33,138 bases of DNA from a virus: positions 1 to 33,138 of the IMG/VR virus record IMGVR_UViG_3300033145_003427. One strand, 5' to 3'. Shown piece by piece: positions 3,575-29,194 of the stretch. Made by a program: the position numbers and the translations under genes. How positions within the stretch are numbered: the stretch's first letter is position 1; every line of letters begins with the position of its first letter. The notes below the pieces were generated by a model. It did not search any database. It was not told where the DNA came from and saw only the letters and a list, made by a program, of their open reading frames with translations.

Positions 3575-4063
3575 TTAAACCCCAAATGCTAAGTAATTAA
3601 TTGTTCCTCCGCTTGCTTTTAAAGCAGATCCACCCCCATCACCTTCTACATACATAGCAGCAGAAACTCCTCCTGCTACTCCCTTGTCTTCATAGACACA
3701 AGAGGGAACAGAAGTCCCACTTGCTCCCTCATAAGTTAAAGATAAAGAGGTGAGGGTGGTTAATCCATGAGTAATACTAATTGACACCCCCGCCCAGGCA
3801 GTTTGTCCTGCAACAAACTTGTAACCTTGAGTTCCATACCCCACAGTAAAACCAGCAGGAATTTGAATGCCTCCTTTGTCTATCGTTACTCCAGAGGGAG
3901 AAGTTGTTATTGTGACTCCACTAACAGACACTCCTGACTGAAGCAACTGACCAAGAGTTATTCTTCTGGTTGTGGTTGTCCCAGTTGTATCATCCAATGT
4001 TATGATGTCAGTAACTCCTGCTGATGTTGCTACAGGAAGTTCTGAAATTTTCTTATCTGCCAT
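3575..4063 (-). CDS. Small fibre-like virion protein
   Basis: This is a 162-aa protein. The N-terminus (MADKKISELPVAT, followed by DIITLDDTTGTTTTRRITLG) resembles the capsid- or tail-anchoring start of many phage spikes and fibres. The C-terminal half is Gly/Ser-rich and ends TINYLAFGV. The block ITHGLTTLTSLSLTYEG and the ending resemble those of the 162-aa protein at 21278-21766, so the two probably share a beta-structured module. The start has AGGAG seven bases upstream. It follows the gpJ-like gene, which fits a tail-tip accessory. Confidence 0.65.
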   Translation of the reverse strand: MADKKISELPVATSAGVTDIITLDDTTGTTTTRRITLGQLLQSGVSVSGVTITTSPSGVTIDKGGIQIPAGFTVGYGTQGYKFVAGQTAWAGVSISITHGLTTLTSLSLTYEGASGTSVPSCVYEDKGVAGGVSAAMYVEGDGGGSALKASGGTINYLAFGV

Positions 4064-4072
4064 TATTTTCTC

Positions 4073-7000
4073 CTAATATCCGACAGCCATCCAATCGATT
4101 ATTCCTGTAACACCTGCCGGAACAGTATCATATACTTTTGAAAAGAACCCTGTAGTAATTTTCCTTACTACTATAGGCAACTTCGCTGCATCTTCAACCA
4201 GAGTGAGTCTGATAGATAATGACGAAGCTGAGTTGAACGCCCGAGCAAAAGTAATTGTAGTCCCACCAATTGCAATATCTACATTTTGTCCAGATTCTGA
4301 TCTGTCTGGTACATCAATTGTTACAATGAAGTCCCCTAATTCTATTCCATTGTATGGAAAACTAGATGGAGTTACTCCAAGTGTGAGCCTAAACTTCAAA
4401 TATCTAAAAGTATATTCTCCTTCTTGAAACGCTGACCAACCATTCCATGTAATATTATCATCTGAAATATTTATTTCAGTAGTGAGAGAAGTTCCATCTT
4501 CAGAGGTGACTTCTGTAGAAACATGAACTGAGCAAGACAGGATTGATGAAATATCTAAAACCTCAGTGACGAATGTCCCGGCAGTAATCTCTGTTGGGGG
4601 TTTCCATGCTTTAGTTTCTGTATCGTACCAAGCTTGTCCAGTAGTGTATGTATTAAATATATCAGTTCCTGTTCTCTTTGTAGCAACATGACATTTCAAA
4701 ATATCATAATCTACAAAGATATCACTTCTTTCTGGAACTAAATAATCTCCTGCCTCTGTCGTTAAATAATCACCTGCTTCTGTCGTCAGAGCATTGATTC
4801 CAGGGCCAAAATAATCAGCATACGCATATCTTCTATGCTGATTAGAAGTTTCAATTACATTTCTCTGAGTAGAAGCTTGAAGAGTGATAGCTTTGCTGGC
4901 ATAGTTATCGCTTTTATTCCCACTTGTATCTACTGTCTTTACAAAATAAAGCTTTGCTCCCTCACTGTATGACATTAAGATATACTTTGTATGGGTTAAC
5001 TGAACTACTAAAGTTGATGAGTTCCATGAGGACCCTTCTCTAATCTCAAAATGACTAAAATCAGCATCAGTCAATCCAGAGGGCCTATCTATAGTGAAGA
5101 TAACAGCGTCTCCTGACTGTACTACATTAAAGTTTTCTGGATCACTTGGCAAAGCCGTCTTTCCAAGGATTGTAGCAGTTACAGCAGAAACATCATCAAT
5201 AGGCTGAAGAACCCCCTGATCATATTCTGATCGCACCTTTACATATAAAGTATCTCCTTCTTCAAAATCTGCTCCTCCAGATTCAATCCTAAAACCAGGA
5301 GTAGTACCAGATGCTGCATTTCCATAATGATCATAAGTTGTTCCGCTTGTGCTTGTCCAGATTTGCCCTCTGTTCCAGAAGGTAGAATCACTAGGCTTGT
5401 CAAAGTATACCAGGACGTAAGGAACATAAGTCCCATCTCCTGCCACAAACCCTCCTTCCGATAATCTTACGTTCTCTACAGAGTTTATCTCAAAAGGATT
5501 AGAAAACTTAGGAGAATAGTTTTCCTGTTCTATGAAACCATCATCGTGGTAGATACCTGAATAGTACGCTTCAAGTTCAAACCTTGGTCGTCCCCACTCA
5601 TCTTCGTCCTTTCTTCTAACAAGAAAATTCTTTTGTGACCAGGAAGGCAAAGTGTGGGTAATCTGTACTCTATCATATACTTCTAAGTCACTTGAATCAG
5701 GAAATCCTGTAAGTCTACAAACATAGTCAGTATACTTAGCCTTGTCGAATTTGTATCTTGCTCTACGTTTTGCTACATCTGTTTCTGTTATATACCAACA
5801 ATTCTCCTCATACAGAACTTCTCCTCTATTTGTTATGTCTCTCTCGTCTTTTATTTCTACTACACTCTTTTTAAACTCATCACTAGAATCTATGTAATGA
5901 ACCCTGACTATATTGGGCCTTTTTACTTTGCCCCAGGTGATAGAATCCTTTACTATGTTATCCTGTGTAAAACTGTGCTTGGATGTTTTTGTTTGAAGGG
6001 CTCCAGCACCATCATGTTCCTCAGCAGCATCCCAGACAGGCTTAATCTGTCCCTGGTCCATGATGCACATACCATTGAACGACTTCCAGATGAGTTTCTT
6101 AGCGTCGTTTATGGTGGTTTTAGTATCAAAGTTGTAGTCAAACGTATACCTCTGGGATCTGCCAAATAGTTTAACATCTCTAATCCCCATATAAGCCCCA
6201 CCATAGTTATCACTGACCTTAAGACTATAGTACCGATAAGCAGTGGAATTTGTGAAAGTGAAAGTTTGAGGATCTGATTGGTCATTAGCAGTATGCTTAG
6301 CAGCAGTCTGACTTACTCCGATATTCGTCCACCCTGAAGCTGTCCAGGAAGTATCATTAAAAGCAGAAGAAGAATTAGAGCCTTGTAAAGTAAAATTTTT
6401 GATCCCTTGTATAAGAGTTCCTCCGTTGTGATGACCATTCTCAAGGACTAACTTATCAACAACGTAACTAACTCCCATGTCAATGTTGACTCGTTGATTT
6501 GTATTGGTCCCATTTGCTGATAGCCACTGCCTCTTTGCATGAGAACCAGTCAAAGATAATCTTTTATTCAGAGCATTCTGAGCTTTGTAACCAGTATTAT
6601 TGTACTGAGAAGTAGCTTTGACAGTACTGTCGCCTGGTCCTGGAGGTCTTATAGGAACAGAGTCTGCTGTAGTGGGCACTGTTGTACAGTAGGTATCAAG
6701 AGCAGTAAACGCATTCTGGTTCAACTCACTCGTGGGTCTTCCTTCAACATTTACATACCAGTCCCACATCACCTGTCCAGGACTTCTTGTAAAAGATTCT
6801 GTACCTCCAACTGCTTGTCCTATATCAAGCTGTTTAGTTCTAAGAACAGTATTGAAATTAGGAGTCCCCCTTATTTCATCTCCCTTACGGAGTTTTAATT
6901 CCGTAACAGCTGTTTCTCTGTACGGGCAGGTTTTGTTGTCCGTAAAGAGATTAGTAACTCCTGATTGGATAGTTGTTCCGCTATGAGACCATTTTGCATG

Positions 7001-7453
7001 ATCCGTATTTTTAAGATTTGACCACTCTACATCATTGATGTAATGAATAAGAAATGCATCAACAGTCCCTTCACAATGAGCAACGATCATTTTAATCCAA
7101 TCTGCTTCGTCTTTATCATTGATTCGGATTATATTTCCTGCTGTTCTACACCGACCAACACATTTAGAAATGATTATACCTTCTTTAGAAGTCAGGAGAG
7201 GAAGTTCTTTACCATAAGTACTTGAGTCATACCCAACGGAAGGATATTCGATGTCGAAATCCATAGTGAGGACATCAAACACAGAACCAGCAGCATATCC
7301 ACCAATGGCTCCTACCATTAAACCAGCAGCGACTGTTCCATATAGACCCAAAGGCATGAGGGCTAAAGCAGCCCCACCAGTGACAACTAGAAGAGCAGCT
7401 GCAGCTGCAGCTCCTAAGATTGCTCCTATAGTTCCGCCACCACCGCCGCCCAT
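4073..7453 (-). CDS. gpJ-like central tail tip / host-specificity protein with discoidin domain
   Basis: This 1126-aa protein lies at the position of lambda gpJ. Residues 1-60 are Gly/Ala-rich and hydrophobic. Residues 65-270 and 430-660 look like the tail-tip hub region (for example EGIIISKCVGRCRTAGNIIR and YTFDYNFDTKTTINDAKKL). Between them, about 273-432, is an inserted F5/8 type C (discoidin)-like domain: KATSQYNNTGYKAQNALN, WLSANGTNTNQRVNIDMG, then YYSLKVSDNYGGAYMGIRD. Residues about 690-860 look like fibronectin-III-type strands. A duplicated LTTEAGDYL occurs near residue 905. The role is to close the tail tip and bind the host surface. The start overlaps the upstream stop by one base (TAATG). 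An internal 69-codon minus-strand frame at 5239-5448 is a shadow. Confidence 0.8.
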   Translation of the reverse strand: MGGGGGGTIGAILGAAAAAALLVVTGGAALALMPLGLYGTVAAGLMVGAIGGYAAGSVFDVLTMDFDIEYPSVGYDSSTYGKELPLLTSKEGIIISKCVGRCRTAGNIIRINDKDEADWIKMIVAHCEGTVDAFLIHYINDVEWSNLKNTDHAKWSHSGTTIQSGVTNLFTDNKTCPYRETAVTELKLRKGDEIRGTPNFNTVLRTKQLDIGQAVGGTESFTRSPGQVMWDWYVNVEGRPTSELNQNAFTALDTYCTTVPTTADSVPIRPPGPGDSTVKATSQYNNTGYKAQNALNKRLSLTGSHAKRQWLSANGTNTNQRVNIDMGVSYVVDKLVLENGHHNGGTLIQGIKNFTLQGSNSSSAFNDTSWTASGWTNIGVSQTAAKHTANDQSDPQTFTFTNSTAYRYYSLKVSDNYGGAYMGIRDVKLFGRSQRYTFDYNFDTKTTINDAKKLIWKSFNGMCIMDQGQIKPVWDAAEEHDGAGALQTKTSKHSFTQDNIVKDSITWGKVKRPNIVRVHYIDSSDEFKKSVVEIKDERDITNRGEVLYEENCWYITETDVAKRRARYKFDKAKYTDYVCRLTGFPDSSDLEVYDRVQITHTLPSWSQKNFLVRRKDEDEWGRPRFELEAYYSGIYHDDGFIEQENYSPKFSNPFEINSVENVRLSEGGFVAGDGTYVPYVLVYFDKPSDSTFWNRGQIWTSTSGTTYDHYGNAASGTTPGFRIESGGADFEEGDTLYVKVRSEYDQGVLQPIDDVSAVTATILGKTALPSDPENFNVVQSGDAVIFTIDRPSGLTDADFSHFEIREGSSWNSSTLVVQLTHTKYILMSYSEGAKLYFVKTVDTSGNKSDNYASKAITLQASTQRNVIETSNQHRRYAYADYFGPGINALTTEAGDYLTTEAGDYLVPERSDIFVDYDILKCHVATKRTGTDIFNTYTTGQAWYDTETKAWKPPTEITAGTFVTEVLDISSILSCSVHVSTEVTSEDGTSLTTEINISDDNITWNGWSAFQEGEYTFRYLKFRLTLGVTPSSFPYNGIELGDFIVTIDVPDRSESGQNVDIAIGGTTITFARAFNSASSLSIRLTLVEDAAKLPIVVRKITTGFFSKVYDTVPAGVTGIIDWMAVGY

Positions 7454-7878
7454 TAGTTAATTTCCTTTATCATTGAAACAGTTTTTTCTTCCTTCCTAAA
7501 TCCATAATGGACAAACACCTCAGGCATGTTGGTATTTATAGAAACTGAAGTTGCTCCTCTTGTTTTTGCCCACTGCTCTATTAGTTCCAATCCTTTTCTA
7601 TTGTCTTTGATACCAAGAGAAGACCAGGTGTAAAAAACAAATACAGAAGCAGCCAAAGGAAGATTTACTGCATCTATAACTACAGAATACCCAGCCAACT
7701 CTTCGTCTTTGTAAGCAAACCATATGGCTACTTTGTCATTCTCACTTTCTATCTGAGAAACAAGCCATTGGATCCACTCTCCACGAGAGCCAGGGATGTA
7801 TAATTCTATATCATCTTCAAGAGACATAACTTTCACAACTTCTGCTACAGTCTCTACTTTTCTAATTTCTATTCCCAC
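7453..7878 (-). CDS. GNAT-like acetyltransferase in the tail-tip operon
   Basis: This 141-aa protein has a GNAT layout: an N-terminal IEIRKVETVAEVVKVM strand-helix, a central strand pair around ELAGYSVVIDAV and SVFVFYTWSS, then a helix GLELIEQWAKTRGATSVSI and a final VFVHYGFRKEEKTVSMIKEI. This matches the last strands of the acetyl-CoA-binding fold. A textbook Q/R-x-x-G-x-A loop is not obvious, so activity is uncertain. The start is GTG, overlapping the upstream stop (TAGTG). It sits between the gpL-like and gpJ-like genes, where lambda-like phages usually carry the NlpC/P60 peptidase gpK. It may modify a tail protein or be a structural exaptation. Confidence 0.6.
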   Translation of the reverse strand: MGIEIRKVETVAEVVKVMSLEDDIELYIPGSRGEWIQWLVSQIESENDKVAIWFAYKDEELAGYSVVIDAVNLPLAASVFVFYTWSSLGIKDNRKGLELIEQWAKTRGATSVSINTNMPEVFVHYGFRKEEKTVSMIKEIN

Positions 7879-8759
7879 TATTGTCCCTCTGTCCTTCCAC
7901 CTATGTGGAGAAAACCTTTGAAATTATCTTGATTGTCACTGCTCGGTCCCCAAGCATCTGTAGCACTACAAGCATTCCAAGTACCAGGACAGCCTTTCCT
8001 TAAAGTATAAGAAGTTATACTTGTATCAATCGTAAATGGTAAAGCCACATCTACCTGAATTTCATTAGAGGTTCCACTAAAATCATTAACGATTCTACTA
8101 TGGGTGACCCCGCTCTTTACGATCTCAATACTACCAAAGTTCCAATAGTCGTTAGCTTGAGTTAAGTTGCCTGCATCTGCAAATGTAGTAGCACTATTTC
8201 CTACTACACTAACAGCACTCGTAACAGTAAGTTTCATTGTGGTGCTGCTCAAATCAGAATAGCCATTTCTGTTACAACCTACATCTCCAAAAATTCTATT
8301 GCACTTTCTCTGGAAGATGTCGTGTAAAGAATGTTTCTCTAACGGCTTCCCAGCAGTAGCAGAAACTGTTAGCCATTGAGGGCCTATGTTTTCTGGCTCC
8401 TCCATGTAGCCATTAAACAACTCAATGTAGTTTGCAGCAACTCCTAAAGTTCCTAAATATACTCGCATGATCTTTAAAGACTTTCCATAGAAATCTTCAG
8501 TAGCAAGATATGCAGACATGTCACCTGTGACATTGTCAAGCTTAACTGTCACTCGGCCTATTTGTCCCTCCATAGACTGAGATATACGAGAAATCTGCAT
8601 AGCCTTCGCTGTATAGACATTGCCATCAAAAGTAATATTGCCTTTTGCTCCAGCATTCCGTAAGGTAGCACCATACAATCCTAACTCTACAAGAATTATA
8701 GGTTGTTGTTGTGCTGCATCTATCTTTGCTACAACAGCTGCTGGGATATTCTTAGCCAA
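7878..8759 (-). CDS. gpL-like tail tip protein with four-cysteine (Fe-S type) site
   Basis: This 293-aa protein is related to the lambda gpL / DUF2163 tail-tip group. The N-terminal half (ITFDGNVYTAKAMQISRIS, then LFNGYMEEPENIGPQWLTV) is the hub-like part. The C-terminal half carries C153, C162, C257 and C264, in KCNRIFGDVGCNRNGY and KGCPGTWNACSATDAW, and ends with DNFKGFLHIGG. The spacings of nine and seven match my recollection of the four cysteines that bind a 4Fe-4S cluster in lambda gpL. The start is TTG (MAKN) directly after the upstream TAA, with GAGG eight bases before it. It lies between a short distal tail protein and the GNAT gene, as expected for tail-tip assembly. Confidence 0.8.
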   Translation of the reverse strand: MAKNIPAAVVAKIDAAQQQPIILVELGLYGATLRNAGAKGNITFDGNVYTAKAMQISRISQSMEGQIGRVTVKLDNVTGDMSAYLATEDFYGKSLKIMRVYLGTLGVAANYIELFNGYMEEPENIGPQWLTVSATAGKPLEKHSLHDIFQRKCNRIFGDVGCNRNGYSDLSSTTMKLTVTSAVSVVGNSATTFADAGNLTQANDYWNFGSIEIVKSGVTHSRIVNDFSGTSNEIQVDVALPFTIDTSITSYTLRKGCPGTWNACSATDAWGPSSDNQDNFKGFLHIGGRTEGQ

Positions 8760-9137
8760 TTACGCAACCTCTTTTTCAAATTCTATTTCTGCTTCCCAGG
8801 AGTTGGCTTTAGGTTTGAACCGAAAAGAGCCCGTTACCCACCTTCCAGTAATGTTACTACCATCGGGAGTTCCGTCCTGATCAGTATCAATATAGGAAGG
8901 AACAGAAGACCAAACAAAAGAATCATATCCTCCTTTAGCTGAATAGTAATGATTGTAGAGAGTCCAAAAATCTGTATCTGACAATCCTTCAAACAAGAGT
9001 TTATACTTCAATACGGGGGTACTGCCAGAAAGGTCTATATAGTTTTTCTTTTGGTTCTCTGACAGTGTTGTAATCGTGTGAAACTCAGGCTCTGTTGGAT
9101 GTACCCATGTGGGAGTAACTGTAAACGCTGCCGCCAT
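8760..9137 (-). CDS. Minor/distal tail protein
   Basis: This 125-aa protein is directly downstream of the tape measure gene, the gpM-like slot of lambda-type tails. The sequence FTVTPTWVHPTEPEFHTITT and the motif LSDTDFWTLYNHYYSAKGG, followed by GRWVTGSFRFKPKANSWEAE, look like a small beta-barrel distal tail component. The ending EIEFEKEV resembles tail-adaptor proteins that read out a fitted strand. AGGAG lies 11 bases before the ATG. The role as a connector between tail tube end and tip is inferred mainly from position. Confidence 0.65.
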   Translation of the reverse strand: MAAAFTVTPTWVHPTEPEFHTITTLSENQKKNYIDLSGSTPVLKYKLLFEGLSDTDFWTLYNHYYSAKGGYDSFVWSSVPSYIDTDQDGTPDGSNITGRWVTGSFRFKPKANSWEAEIEFEKEVA

Positions 9138-9138
9138 A

Positions 9139-11484
9139 CTATGATCTACTCCTTATAAGTTTTCTTATTCTCTCATCGTTTTCATAACTGGCAACTACAG
9201 CCTGGGGAGCTAGTTCAGTAGTCACAACTGCTGCTATTTGTTCCATATAAGTTCTTTGTGTATCTAAATCCTGAAAGACAGGATTCTCCATATGAATAAT
9301 TACAGTTTGTCCTGCTCCTGTCATCTCTACCGGGATCTTGCCTCCAGCAGATAAAGGAACATGGGCTTCAGGCACGCCAGCATAGTATATGCCTGGCTCT
9401 CTTGAAATACCTCCTGCGTCATAACTTGGAGGCTTCTGAGCTTTGATTGCTGCTACTTGAGCAAAGCCCATAGCTCCTACGGTAGCTGCTACAGCGAAAT
9501 TAAATGGAGGAGGAATAGTTGCTAATGCTTTCGTAATTGCCTCATAGGTGTTTATGGTAGCCTGAATAATTGAAAATACTTTATTCATTCTAAATGCTTC
9601 TTTACTACTCACCATACCAGCTTCACCTAACATTTGAAACGTTTGGGCCATATTGCTAGCTGCTTGGGATGCATACCCCATTTTAGCTGATGCTTCTTGT
9701 CGTGCTATTTTCTTCCTTTCTTCTGCTGCCCAAGCTTCGAGTTTTATTCTATCTACTCCAGCTTTTTCATAAAGTTTTCGTTCTCTTTCTACATTTAGTC
9801 TGGCTACTTCGAACTCAGTTTTTCCTAACTCTTGATATTTTTCCAGAAACTCTTGTTTTCTTGCAAACTTCTCTGATTCCCCCATAGCAATATCAGTAAG
9901 AGGAGATGGAGGAACTCCAGGTAACTTGGGTTTTCCCTTTGCAACAACTCCAGGAAGAAGACCTTTTTCTGCCCTCTCTTTTGCTGCTTTTTCCATGACA
10001 TTTGTTATTTCTTTTTCCAGTTTATCTTGAAGTCCTTTTAATTTTTCACCATAACCTTCGAAGTCTTTTAATCTCTCTTCATAGGCTTTTCTTGCTTGCT
10101 CTGTTCCAGTTTCTAGATAGAACTTCCCTGCTTGTGGAACAACCCCTTGTGGCCCAAAATAATATTCCCAAGCAACACCAAATTTGTCTTTTATCCATCT
10201 ATAACTAATTTTTAGCGGTTCAATGATATGTTCATTAAACCACTGATATCCAAAAGTAGTCTTTATATTCTCCCACATGTAAGCCCATATAGCAGAAATA
10301 TTAGCAATCACAGGAAGAAAAGAAATCCTAATAACTTTAACAATACCAAGGAATAAATCTAAAATCCAAATCATTATTTTATCTTTGTTTCTTTTTATCA
10401 TTTCTGCTAAAGAGACGACACTATTTGCTAACCAAGTAAAAATCTTTTTTCCTTGATCTTTATAGACATCAAAAACAGAAATTCCTAATTCTTGTATGGC
10501 AGACCAAAGGATTTTCCACTGACCTCGGAATGTATCCATCATACGACTATACATTTCAGATGTTCTGCCGGCTTCCTTTTGAGAATCCCTTAACATTTGA
10601 ACAAAATTAGAAAATGCTCCTACAGAATTTGCCGCTTGTTCTGCTAATCTTTTCATATTAAGACCAGCACGAGCACCAAAAATGTCTACTGCCTGCTTTG
10701 TAGTCATAGATCTCTTACCGATTGTTTCTAATATCTCTCCAAATGTATAGGTCTCTGGGTTGACATCTTGAAAAGTCAATCCCATCTGAGCTAATGCTTG
10801 TTGAGCTTTAGTAGTTTGTTTAGACAGTTGGATCATAGACATTCTTAAGTTAGTACCAGCCATACTACCTTCTAAACCAAGATTAGCAAACTGGGCTACC
10901 GCTGCAGTGGTTTCTTCAATAGTCCATCCTAAAGCCGCTCCAGTAGTGCCAGCAAACTTCATTGCCTCGGTAAGTCGTTCCATTGTCAACTGAGAACTTG
11001 TAATAGCAGCAGCATATGTATCAGTTATTCTCCTCGATTCCTCTGCTCTAAGACCAAACTGTTTCATAGAAGCTGCAAGAATTCTTGTGCCTTGTTCCAT
11101 CTGAGAACCGGTAGCTCCTGCCAATTTCATAGCATCTTCTACAGAAACCACTATTTGTCTTGTATTCATACCAGCAGAAGCTAGATCGTACATACCTCTT
11201 GCTGCCTGAGTTGCTGTAAAAGCGGTGGTTTTGCCCAACTCTCTAGCCTTATCCTCAAGAGCTTTTAACTCTTTTCCAAAGGCTTGTGCCACTGTAGCCG
11301 TTTCAGTAAGCACTTGTTCAAATTTTGATCCAACGAGAGCAGAGGTAGCAATCACCCCTGCAAAAGCAAGAGTGAGTCTTTTAGCAGTTCGTTTAGCTGA
11401 GGAGACAGCCTGTCTCATTCCTCGTTTAAAACCAGCTAGGTCAGCTCCTACTCTTACTACCAACTTTTCAGTACCAGCGACCAT
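9139..11484 (-). CDS. Tail tape measure protein (TP901 family core)
   Basis: This 781-aa protein sets tail length and helps DNA enter the cell. Residues about 60-270 match the TP901-type core: ARELGKTTAFTATQAARGMY, LAGATGSQMEQGTRILAASM, then ITSSQLTMERLTEAMKFAGT. Hydrophobic segments lie at about 370-405 (IMIWILDLFLGIVKVIRISF) and near 660-690. A Lys/Glu-rich helical stretch separates them. At roughly 1.5 angstrom per residue, a tail of about 115-120 nm is predicted. The start overlaps the frameshifted chaperone gene (TAATG) with AAGGGA upstream. It follows the chaperones as in lambda. Confidence 0.92.
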   Translation of the reverse strand: MVAGTEKLVVRVGADLAGFKRGMRQAVSSAKRTAKRLTLAFAGVIATSALVGSKFEQVLTETATVAQAFGKELKALEDKARELGKTTAFTATQAARGMYDLASAGMNTRQIVVSVEDAMKLAGATGSQMEQGTRILAASMKQFGLRAEESRRITDTYAAAITSSQLTMERLTEAMKFAGTTGAALGWTIEETTAAVAQFANLGLEGSMAGTNLRMSMIQLSKQTTKAQQALAQMGLTFQDVNPETYTFGEILETIGKRSMTTKQAVDIFGARAGLNMKRLAEQAANSVGAFSNFVQMLRDSQKEAGRTSEMYSRMMDTFRGQWKILWSAIQELGISVFDVYKDQGKKIFTWLANSVVSLAEMIKRNKDKIMIWILDLFLGIVKVIRISFLPVIANISAIWAYMWENIKTTFGYQWFNEHIIEPLKISYRWIKDKFGVAWEYYFGPQGVVPQAGKFYLETGTEQARKAYEERLKDFEGYGEKLKGLQDKLEKEITNVMEKAAKERAEKGLLPGVVAKGKPKLPGVPPSPLTDIAMGESEKFARKQEFLEKYQELGKTEFEVARLNVERERKLYEKAGVDRIKLEAWAAEERKKIARQEASAKMGYASQAASNMAQTFQMLGEAGMVSSKEAFRMNKVFSIIQATINTYEAITKALATIPPPFNFAVAATVGAMGFAQVAAIKAQKPPSYDAGGISREPGIYYAGVPEAHVPLSAGGKIPVEMTGAGQTVIIHMENPVFQDLDTQRTYMEQIAAVVTTELAPQAVVASYENDERIRKLIRSRS

Positions 11485-26431: not shown

Positions 26432-29194
26432 TTAAGTGGTTTTGGTCTTCTTTTTCTTAGTAATCTGCTTAGCTTTTCTTTTCAACTTATCAATTGTAAG
26501 GATTCTTCTATCCGTTGCCATTTGATTGAGTTTTAACTTCCCCTTCTTCCAAAGACCATACCGAGTCGGGCCTAGAATATCTTCTGCCCTTCCTGCTTCG
26601 TAGATTGCAGAGGCGGGATCATCTAATTGTTTCAACCACATCGGGTAAGCAAGAGTTGAAGGAACTGGACCGGCAAAGGAGGCCCGTGTAGAAGGAGGAA
26701 CTTCCTTTGTCACTTTGTCTCCTAATTCTTTCCAGGATTTTGAGATGGGGGCTAGGACGCATCGGCAATTATGAGAAACAAATCCATTAGCTATATAAGA
26801 CTCATCATCCTCAACAGAAAAGTTATAAAGAGTAGTAGACGTCACTGTAGGAGTTTTCCCTCCTTTCTTAGTCGAAATCCAATGTTTCACAGAAACAACT
26901 TTTAATTCTATATACTTATATTCACCATTATGATTTGCCATAACTCTACACAACTCGTCCACACAAGAACCAACATCTGAATTTACTTCACTCTCAGAAT
27001 ATCGTAAAACAAGCCACCCTTGATCTTCTATCTCTTTTTGTCTTTTTTGATCTTTTTCTTTATTCTGATGCCAATAATCGCCATCTACCTCGATAGCAAT
27101 CTTAAGTTTAGGAATTGCAAAATCTACAAAATATCCAACTATAGGGTGTTGTTTTGTAAAAGTGAGCCCTCTTGCTTCCATCATTTCTCTGAACTTCTTT
27201 TCTAAACTAGATTCAAATCCCTTTCTAGCCATAACTCTATTAGGATGTTTATCAGGATTCTCTTTAAAAAATTTCCTCATCTTACGACCATAAACTAATC
27301 TTAGATGAGGATACTTCACCATGCAATTCTTATCGCCTTTTTTCGATTCAGAAATTTGAATCCTAACTTCTGGTCGTTTAGAAGGATTTCTCTCTCCAAT
27401 TTGTGGATTAGTTTGGAAAGGATGAATTCCATCATAAAACATTTTTGCAACTGCTCTTCTGGCTGGGACTGTGGCTGAATATCTATTTCTTTCTCCAGAA
27501 GCATATTGTTCTATATTTTTAGCACTAATTTTCTCTGACATATTCTTTCGATGTTCAGGATCTGTCCACTGTTTATCTGTAACATCTTTACTCAAACAAC
27601 TCTGAGAACAATGTTTTCTATTATAAGGAATCAATTTCCCACATCTCTTACATTCTGCAGCCAGATATCTCAACATATCACCAACTTTAATTTCTTTAGC
27701 AGGCTGCCATTCACCATCAATCATGAGAGGATGATCTGTAGTAACGGTCAGTTTTCTTGTGCCTGGTCTAAACACCTTACTTGTATTAAATCTAGGAAAT
27801 TCAACTTCTACAGTTACAACTTCTGGGCCTTTCACCTTATGTCGAATTATGTCCGTTACTTTTCTAAACCTCCCTTTGTGAGTCAGAACTCTATCTCCAA
27901 CTTCAATCTTACCTATAGATTTCATTCCTCTTGAAGTAAATATAGGAATTTGGTGGTCGATAAAACAATAAGGATGCAAAGGAATTATCGGAGCGTTGAT
28001 AACTCCTTCTTTATATTGATAAATCTTCCCGTCAAGAGATCCACAACGGATGCAATTGTGAACAAAAACCCCTTCAGCTAGAAAAGAATGGTCCTCTTCA
28101 ACAGCAATATCATAAACCTCCACTTCTTCTATCACTTCTTCAACTGATAATATTTCAATTTCCTCAAAAGTCATCTTATTTTTGCCATCGATTGCATCCC
28201 CTAGTTTTAAATTTCTAACCTCAATCCATCTTTCTTCTTTTAAAACTAAATGATCGGAAGTTATCTTCAAAATTTTTCCATTTGATAGTTTGACTTTTAA
28301 GTATCTATCCCTCTTAGTTTTCATCTTACCCAAAATCCGTCTCCAATTTCCTTTATGAGATAAAACCAAATCCCCTACTTTTACATCTTTTATTCTCTTC
28401 TCTCCTTCTTTGGTATTTACAATAGTTTCTGGAAGTAAACATGTTCTCGAATCAAGCGTACTCACGAATTGCACTCCACGCAGCACATCCTGATTCTCAT
28501 TATAGATCCCTCTTGCTACTCGATTACTAACATGTTGAATCTCTGTCCGAGCAACAATCTGAGCCTTATTCCATATCAACTTTTCTGCTTCTCCAGCTGT
28601 AAGTTTTACTGTAAGTTTTAATTCTTCTATTCTTGGAATCAAGGCAGGGGCTACAGGTTTAACCAACCTTTTAGCAGCCCTGGCCATGTCTTCCCCTTGA
28701 ATAATAGACTGAGTTAGTTCTCGTTTCATCAAACCGATAGCTTTCTGGTTTGTCCAGAGCAGTTCGTCAGCTATCTTTCTCTCACCAAGTAAAGGATTAG
28801 AAAGGATATGATCAATATGCCTATAAGGTAATCGGACTATATCTATTCCAAGCGGGCCGTAAGCCTTGTCTAACATGTTATGATAGACCTGAGAATCTAA
28901 TAGGGCTATCTCTTTCATTCCATCTTCTAAGATGCCAGCCGACTGAAGCGCAGCAGCATTTAAAACCCCTTGAACCTCAGCCAACTGTGCCTTTAATCGA
29001 GCCACTCGGAAATCAAGACTGAATCCAGTACCGTATTTTTCCAGAGAAACAAGCCGATCATAGATTTGGTTTTTGGCCCTCCTGTAAGGCTTGAGCATAC
29101 TATGAATGGTTTTGGTTTCAAACCTATACTGATAATGTGGCCATTTCAGTAGAAATTCTCGGAAGGAAAGAGAAACATTTTTCTTAGCAGGCAT
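26432..29194 (-). CDS. MuF-type minor head protein (SPP1 gp7-like) interrupted by two inteins
   Basis: The 920-aa precursor contains an extein of 391 aa (residues 1-251, 381-409, 810-920) after two splicing events. Joined, the extein reads STLDSRT-CIRCGSLDGKIY, then IIPLHPY-CRCVLAPISK, which is the signature T-C-x-x-C-x-x-L-D-G-K-x-Y...L-H-P-x-C-R-C of the MuF/SPP1 gp7 family. The N-terminal part is helical (long segments around 60-100 and 140-230) and binds the portal in related phages. It acts in head morphogenesis or is carried into the cell with DNA. The ATG follows the portal stop directly (TAG ATG). Both inteins sit before conserved cysteines. Confidence 0.9.
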   Translation of the reverse strand: MPAKKNVSLSFREFLLKWPHYQYRFETKTIHSMLKPYRRAKNQIYDRLVSLEKYGTGFSLDFRVARLKAQLAEVQGVLNAAALQSAGILEDGMKEIALLDSQVYHNMLDKAYGPLGIDIVRLPYRHIDHILSNPLLGERKIADELLWTNQKAIGLMKRELTQSIIQGEDMARAAKRLVKPVAPALIPRIEELKLTVKLTAGEAEKLIWNKAQIVARTEIQHVSNRVARGIYNENQDVLRGVQFVSTLDSRTCLLPETIVNTKEGEKRIKDVKVGDLVLSHKGNWRRILGKMKTKRDRYLKVKLSNGKILKITSDHLVLKEERWIEVRNLKLGDAIDGKNKMTFEEIEILSVEEVIEEVEVYDIAVEEDHSFLAEGVFVHNCIRCGSLDGKIYQYKEGVINAPIIPLHPYCFIDHQIPIFTSRGMKSIGKIEVGDRVLTHKGRFRKVTDIIRHKVKGPEVVTVEVEFPRFNTSKVFRPGTRKLTVTTDHPLMIDGEWQPAKEIKVGDMLRYLAAECKRCGKLIPYNRKHCSQSCLSKDVTDKQWTDPEHRKNMSEKISAKNIEQYASGERNRYSATVPARRAVAKMFYDGIHPFQTNPQIGERNPSKRPEVRIQISESKKGDKNCMVKYPHLRLVYGRKMRKFFKENPDKHPNRVMARKGFESSLEKKFREMMEARGLTFTKQHPIVGYFVDFAIPKLKIAIEVDGDYWHQNKEKDQKRQKEIEDQGWLVLRYSESEVNSDVGSCVDELCRVMANHNGEYKYIELKVVSVKHWISTKKGGKTPTVTSTTLYNFSVEDDESYIANGFVSHNCRCVLAPISKSWKELGDKVTKEVPPSTRASFAGPVPSTLAYPMWLKQLDDPASAIYEAGRAEDILGPTRYGLWKKGKLKLNQMATDRRILTIDKLKRKAKQITKKKKTKTT
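26768..27967 (-). mobile_element. Intein 2 with Vsr-like/EDxHD-type homing endonuclease (400 aa)
   Basis: The intein runs from C410 to N809, with C810 as the first extein residue (SHN|C). Block A is CFIDHQIPIF with IGKIEVGDRVLTHKG; block B is LTVTTDHPLM with T486 and H488; block F/G is YNFSVEDDESYIANGFVSHN. Between them is a four-cysteine zinc-finger-like unit (C515, C518, C529, C533), NUMOD3-like stretches (DPEHRKNMSEKISAKN at 546-561; GERNPSKRPEVRIQISESKK at 600-619), and a nuclease: FESSLEKKFREMMEARG, YFVDFAIPKLKIAIEVDGDY with D691, E702, D704 and H709. This is the Vsr/DUF559-like PD-(D/E)XK fold seen in some homing endonucleases. Cleavage of inteinless copies of the gene is the expected role. 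Confidence 0.85.
28055..28441 (-). other. Intein 1, mini-intein without endonuclease (129 aa)
   Basis: The intein runs from C252 to N380, with C381 as the first extein residue. Block A is CLLPETIVNTKEGEKRIKDV with KVGDLVLSHKG; block B is ITSDHLVL with H315; block F/G is VYDIAVEEDHSFLAEGVFVH ending in N380. All needed splicing residues (C1, block B His, terminal His-Asn, C+1) are present. There is no room for a homing nuclease, so it is a mini-intein that probably lost one. Splicing restores SRT-CIRCGSLDGKIY. Confidence 0.88.

Follow-up and report, generated by a model that had tools for sequence, protein, structure and literature searches.

An intein with an in-frame EDxHD-type nuclease in a phage MuF gene, and its relatives as candidate homing elements

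Introduction

An intein that interrupts a phage head gene and encloses a nuclease of an unusual class raises the question of whether it is a working mobile element or a remnant of one. The case considered here is IMG/VR virus record IMGVR_UViG_3300033145_003427 (33 kb), from an uncultured phage, which carries genes for terminase, portal, MuF, head, tape measure and tail; the whole stretch analysed, 33,138 nucleotides, is referred to as the window. Its MuF gene holds two inteins. An earlier note had proposed that the second of these carries a zinc unit, NUMOD3-like segments and a Vsr/DUF559-like nuclease, and that it may be an active mobile element. In this study we compared its sequence, predicted structure and alleles with those of related inteins.

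Architecture of the MuF gene and its inteins

The features of the gene are as follows, with the basis of each in brackets.

26432..29194, minus strand: ORF of a MuF-like minor head protein, 920 aa, with two inteins (PF04233; PHROG head morphogenesis)
28055..28441, minus strand: intein 1, a mini-intein of 129 aa, residues 252-380, at LDSRT^CIRC (intein_Cterm and Intein_splicing matches)
26768..27967, minus strand: intein 2, 400 aa, ORF residues 410-809 (C410 to N809), at HPY^CRC (C1, block B T76/H79, H399-N400 and Cys+1; empty alleles in MuF relatives)
27659..27967, minus strand: N-terminal splicing half of the Hint domain, intein residues 1-103 (AlphaFold model against intein Hint folds)
27596..27652, minus strand: four-cysteine unit, probably a zinc site, C515-x2-C518-x10-C529-x3-C533 (conservation; weak DUF2116 matches)
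27212..27595, minus strand: helical linker, probably a DNA-contacting arm, intein residues 125-252 (model helices, block pLDDT 50-94)
26930..27211, minus strand: EDxHD (Vsr-fold) nuclease core, intein residues 253-346, with E665, D691, E702, D704, H709 and D715 (3r3p superposition; DUF559; conservation)
26768..26929, minus strand: C-terminal splicing half of the Hint domain, intein residues 347-400 (intein_Cterm; AlphaFold model)

The interval 26768-27967 on the minus strand, previously put forward as the nuclease-bearing element, proved to be intein 2 to the base, from C410 to N809 of ORF 26432-29194. Both splicing profiles match it (Intein_splicing, E 9.4e-16; intein_Cterm, E 9.3e-17), the window's copy has Cys at +1, and in the full-length relatives C1, H79 and N400 are present in 42/42 and T76 and H399 in 41/42. 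The AlphaFold model (mean pLDDT 87.1, pTM 0.72) is more certain within the Hint and nuclease parts than in their mutual placement; its Hint part superposes on the Mtu RecA intein with Z up to 17.6 over 130 residues. By sequence criteria and Hint fold, intein 2 is a complete class 1 intein that is predicted to splice; the intact motifs, together with the uninterrupted alleles, suggest that HPY would be joined to CRC.

The host gene itself is recognised fully only when both inteins are removed, its PF04233 score rising from 19.8 bits (cut-off 29.6) to 49.7 bits, which is an independent check of the intein boundaries and also shows why such MuF genes, whose score lies under the cut-off until spliced, are poorly annotated. 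Joining the exteins restores the CxxC and HPxCRC motifs, as seen in an alignment with L002, L095, L096 and L097, and places the insertion point of intein 2 inside the conserved MuF Cys/His cluster (CxxC...HPxCxC). Intein 1 has no nuclease and is separated from intein 2 by an extein of 29 residues (87 bp), an arrangement that had been described beforehand and is borne out by the ORF coordinates. A close search for relatives of intein 1 gave a single weak match.

The nuclease and the probable DNA-binding region

Intein 2 matches DUF559 at E about 1e-17 to 2.7e-17, a level well beyond chance, and 39 of the 42 full-length relatives match this model too. When the intein family profile was compared with the PDB, the best match was I-Bth0305I (3r3p; E 7.7e-13), with Vsr itself at 1e-4, and 3r3p was also the first-ranked Foldseek match of the intein 2 model. 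In a VIA-align superposition, residues 253-348 (ORF 662-757) of the modelled nuclease core lie on the catalytic domain of I-Bth0305I with Z 14.0 and an rmsd of 1.8 A over 94 residues. The absence of a Vsr-like fold around residues 655-740 had been named as an observation that would count against a Vsr-like nuclease; the model does show the fold.

The name of the EDxHD family we take to refer to conserved E, D, H and D residues, and their correspondence to those of I-Bth0305I was taken from the family-profile alignment with 3r3p. In the 42 relatives E665 (E256) is found in 39, D691 (D282) in all and H709 (H300) in 40, while D715 (D306) is Asp in 33 and Glu in the others; E702 (E293) is invariant and D704 (D295) is at least 90% conserved. 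At the positions aligned with D691 and H709 the 3r3p chain carries Ala, which probably marks it as a catalytic mutant. Thus the modelled fold and the residues together place the intein 2 nuclease in the EDxHD homing endonuclease family, and cleavage is predicted.

Much of the initial description of this core therefore stands: D691, E702, D704 and H709 are where they had been placed, within a Vsr-type fold matched by DUF559. The Vsr label does not, since the match to the Vsr mismatch repair enzyme proper (TIGR00632) reaches 26.6 bits against a cut-off of 97.85, and the nuclease should be read as EDxHD instead. The stated lack of a LAGLIDADG or HNH nuclease agrees with the Pfam and NCBIfam results for intein 2, which include neither model. 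One PHROG family named 'HNH endonuclease' does match residues 616-731 (E 6e-8); this stretch, part of which is the EDxHD core, has no HNH motif.

The four-cysteine unit is likewise present as described, at C515, C518, C529 and C533 (C106, C109, C120 and C124 in the intein), and is nearly invariant, the first three residues occurring in 42/42 full-length relatives and the last in 41/42. Weak matches to the treble-clef DUF2116 cover this region in 12/42 relatives. The NUMOD3-like segments, in contrast, were not recovered: up to E 10, PF07460 finds nothing in the window, and only 2/42 relatives match it at E < 0.1. The zinc unit and the helical arm probably bind DNA.

Relatives and their insertion sites

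When IMG/VR was scanned with an initial alignment of five sequences, 148 of 190 candidate stretches proved to encode a related intein; 80 of the 148 were kept and 42 full-length inteins aligned. Most relatives sit at HPx^CxC across many MuF families. Others are found at MuF site 1 (L069, L077) and in a uracil-DNA glycosylase gene (L071, L078; PF03167 E 2.5e-23 for L078). Similarity to the window is 27-60% in the intein and often marginal or undetectable in the extein, a difference that could partly reflect faster MuF evolution. Among annotated phages no relative covers 80% of intein 2, although its Hint part has matches in Gordonia phages and its nuclease part in Rhizobium, Microcystis and one further phage; bacterial and archaeal genomes gave ten weak partial matches and no full relative.

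Several loci show further peculiarities. The uracil-DNA glycosylase superfamily genes of L071 and L078 have a very long C-terminal extension, 740-1102 aa past the intein. From 4001 onwards L066 has a MuF gene that seems to be interrupted by two members of this intein family, of which one has Ser at +1 and the other starts CIVSGKLGIYTNKG. The L002 intein (3986-5332) is enlarged in its C-terminal Hint part by an additional segment of about 50 residues that resembles a helix-turn-helix (MarR_2 E 1.3e-4, below cut-off) and is reminiscent of the DNA recognition region of PI-SceI. Gordonia phage Nordenberg, an isolated phage, has in gp9 (L144, 18-3125) an intein with a different insert at the equivalent MuF site, HEVIN^CRC; the record annotates MuF only.

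Five loci (L005, L012, L023, L032 and L034) have the intein in front of the second Cys (HPxCx^C), 6 bp downstream of the usual HPx^CxC. On the tree of the 42 inteins, a quick tree with SH-aLRT support only and with L067 left ungrouped as its site is ambiguous, the shifted position has to arise five times, once for each of these loci, and supported branches require every one of these changes. Both HPxCxC codons specify cysteine, and either can supply the +1 nucleophile.

Allele states, nuclease loss and selection

The MuF relatives that were aligned, in all allele states, are 42-51% identical to the window, those empty at both sites about 45%. Both sites are empty in L095, L096, L098 and L131-L135; L097 has intein 1 only and L002 intein 2 only, and the site of intein 1 is empty in L002, L095, L096 and L131-L135. 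L005 has both inteins, with intein 1 broken into separate frames and intein 2 lacking the nuclease core. At this locus (4272-10567) the fractured-looking intein 1 shows a stop past the N half, a small cysteine-rich ORF (5206-5712) and the C half in another frame; on inspection the ORF resembles an HNH nuclease, but it matches none of the HNH Pfam models and was not accepted as one. A difference in life stage between inteins 1 and 2 had been proposed from the window, and it holds for the wider set, in which relatives at both sites are empty, mini, fractured, full or deleted.

Inteins with the nuclease deleted or partly deleted occur in L005, L063, L065, L070, L072, L074 and L084. Two collinear pairs show the loss to be in frame: L074 lacks exactly 720 bp that are present in L007, and L063 is 579 bp shorter than L014, the larger blocks of matching flank in these pairs being about 71-80% identical. 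Near-identical empty alleles of the genes of the window and of L014 were also searched for, and the empty ones found were at ~38-52% protein identity; a filled and empty pair with near-identical flanks, and with it a recent homing event, was thus not directly seen.

Where dS could be estimated, the dN/dS of the nuclease is about 0.10-0.33 (L042/L048 0.10, L048/L050 0.11, L028/L031 0.17, L023/L030 0.23, L013/L014 0.28, window/L002 0.32), within the range of the splicing halves, as with the C-terminal half of window/L002 at 0.24; these values are rough because dS is high (0.6 to saturated). Even so, they suggest that the surviving nuclease domains are under purifying selection.

Discussion

The architecture, predicted fold, residue conservation, allele states, deletions and selection observed here are best accommodated if intein 2 is a functional mobile homing intein, which we consider very probable. 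The split Hint domain would excise it from the MuF precursor and ligate HPY to CRC. The zinc unit and helical arm would bind DNA, and in co-infecting phages whose MuF gene lacks the intein the EDxHD nuclease would cut that gene close to the HPxCxC codons. The break would then be repaired off the intein-bearing genome, and the cut allele would acquire the intein along with flanking DNA. In full copies the nuclease would stay under selection, and filled sites might later lose it by in-frame deletion to leave a mini-intein. The earlier suggestion that intein 2 may be an active mobile element in this way gains indirect support from the intact residues for splicing and catalysis, the purifying selection on the nuclease and the patchy distribution among relatives.

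It could be argued instead that intein 2 still splices while its nuclease is already inactive, a recent remnant in an element that no longer moves. The family does contain many inteins in which the nuclease is wholly or partly deleted, and the window's copy has no near-identical relative with which to test very recent decay; yet every EDxHD and zinc residue in the window is intact, the AlphaFold model is confident over the core, and the nuclease dN/dS of window/L002 is similar to that of the C-terminal splicing half, so that we regard this as unlikely. Retention for regulation, with zinc- or redox-controlled splicing timing the head protein and the nuclease mattering less, would fit the insertion in the conserved MuF Cys/His cluster and the near invariance of the four-cysteine unit, and there are known cases of regulatory inteins elsewhere (PMC6195587). 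Most close MuF relatives lack the intein, however, which indicates that it is not needed, and the mini-inteins of L072, L074 and L084 keep the splicing blocks without nuclease or four-cysteine unit; loss of the unit thus tends to accompany loss of the nuclease, L063 and L065, where the unit is retained, being exceptions. We find this explanation very improbable. Least credible of all is a toxin reading, in which the Hint and nuclease parts would be a module of a polymorphic MuF toxin and be set free by autoproteolysis. Such toxins exist (PMC5576092), and the Hint parts do match PT-HINT, but a toxin domain would be expected C-terminal to MuF, while the nuclease here lies within the Hint domain and not C-terminal to it, MuF sequence resumes past the intein, uninterrupted MuF relatives have neither piece, and the His-Asn-Cys splice junction is complete.

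On the homing interpretation, intein 1 is plausibly either a nuclease-less end stage or a passenger in the conversion tract of intein 2, by whose co-conversion it could be carried along. For archaeal neighbouring inteins, each has been found by experiment to influence the homing of the other (PMC10643990). The natural series of empty, full, deleted and fractured alleles at two neighbouring sites of one gene makes both the homing cycle and such neighbour interference directly testable, and the family offers compact phage inteins and unusual site-specific nucleases. It is quite possible, if somewhat less than probable, that the relatives form a large and undescribed lineage of contiguous phage inteins with an in-frame EDxHD nuclease, specialised on the MuF Cys/His cluster, which co-converts its nuclease-less neighbour and has moved repeatedly between HPxCxC cysteine codons 6 bp apart, a degenerate nuclease and two equivalent Cys nucleophiles making both usable.

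Comparison with known systems

The nearest structural counterpart, I-Bth0305I, is encoded by a group I intron in recA (reviewed in PMC3943268), whereas the nuclease of intein 2 lies in frame in a protein-splicing MuF intein and is accompanied by a four-cysteine unit. The EDxHD endonucleases form a recognised family, with members in group I introns (PMC3943268). Related EDxHD/Vsr-outgroup endonucleases with CapR-like domains occur in phage group II introns (PMC12350094); these share with intein 2 a Vsr-type core following DNA-binding modules, in phages, but differ in their RNA intron host and other N-terminal modules. LAGLIDADG inteins such as PI-SceI likewise enclose their nuclease within the Hint domain, past block B and ahead of the C-terminal blocks, and the homing principle is the same, although the nuclease fold is unrelated. 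A further counterpart is formed by fractured split-intein loci in phage genes, in which, as Dassa et al. reportedly described in 2009, a Vsr-like endonuclease is a separate gene between the intein halves. PMC12350094 and PMC10448857 cite Dassa et al. 2009 for these EDxHD/fractured split-intein loci. In one paper on a cyanobacterial genome a single paragraph names both inteins and a DUF559/EDxHD gene but leaves their arrangement ambiguous. In the open literature, at the level of titles, abstracts and selected passages, no in-frame EDxHD nuclease in a contiguous phage intein was found to be described, and priority is therefore uncertain. Intein 2 is best read as a known kind of mechanism in a little-documented variant. 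Like the fractured loci it combines an intein with a Vsr-like homing endonuclease in a phage gene, but in place of their free-standing nuclease gene the window has one uninterrupted frame, a Vsr-type nuclease nested in a whole intein, which is a step that the fractured split-intein loci only hinted at.
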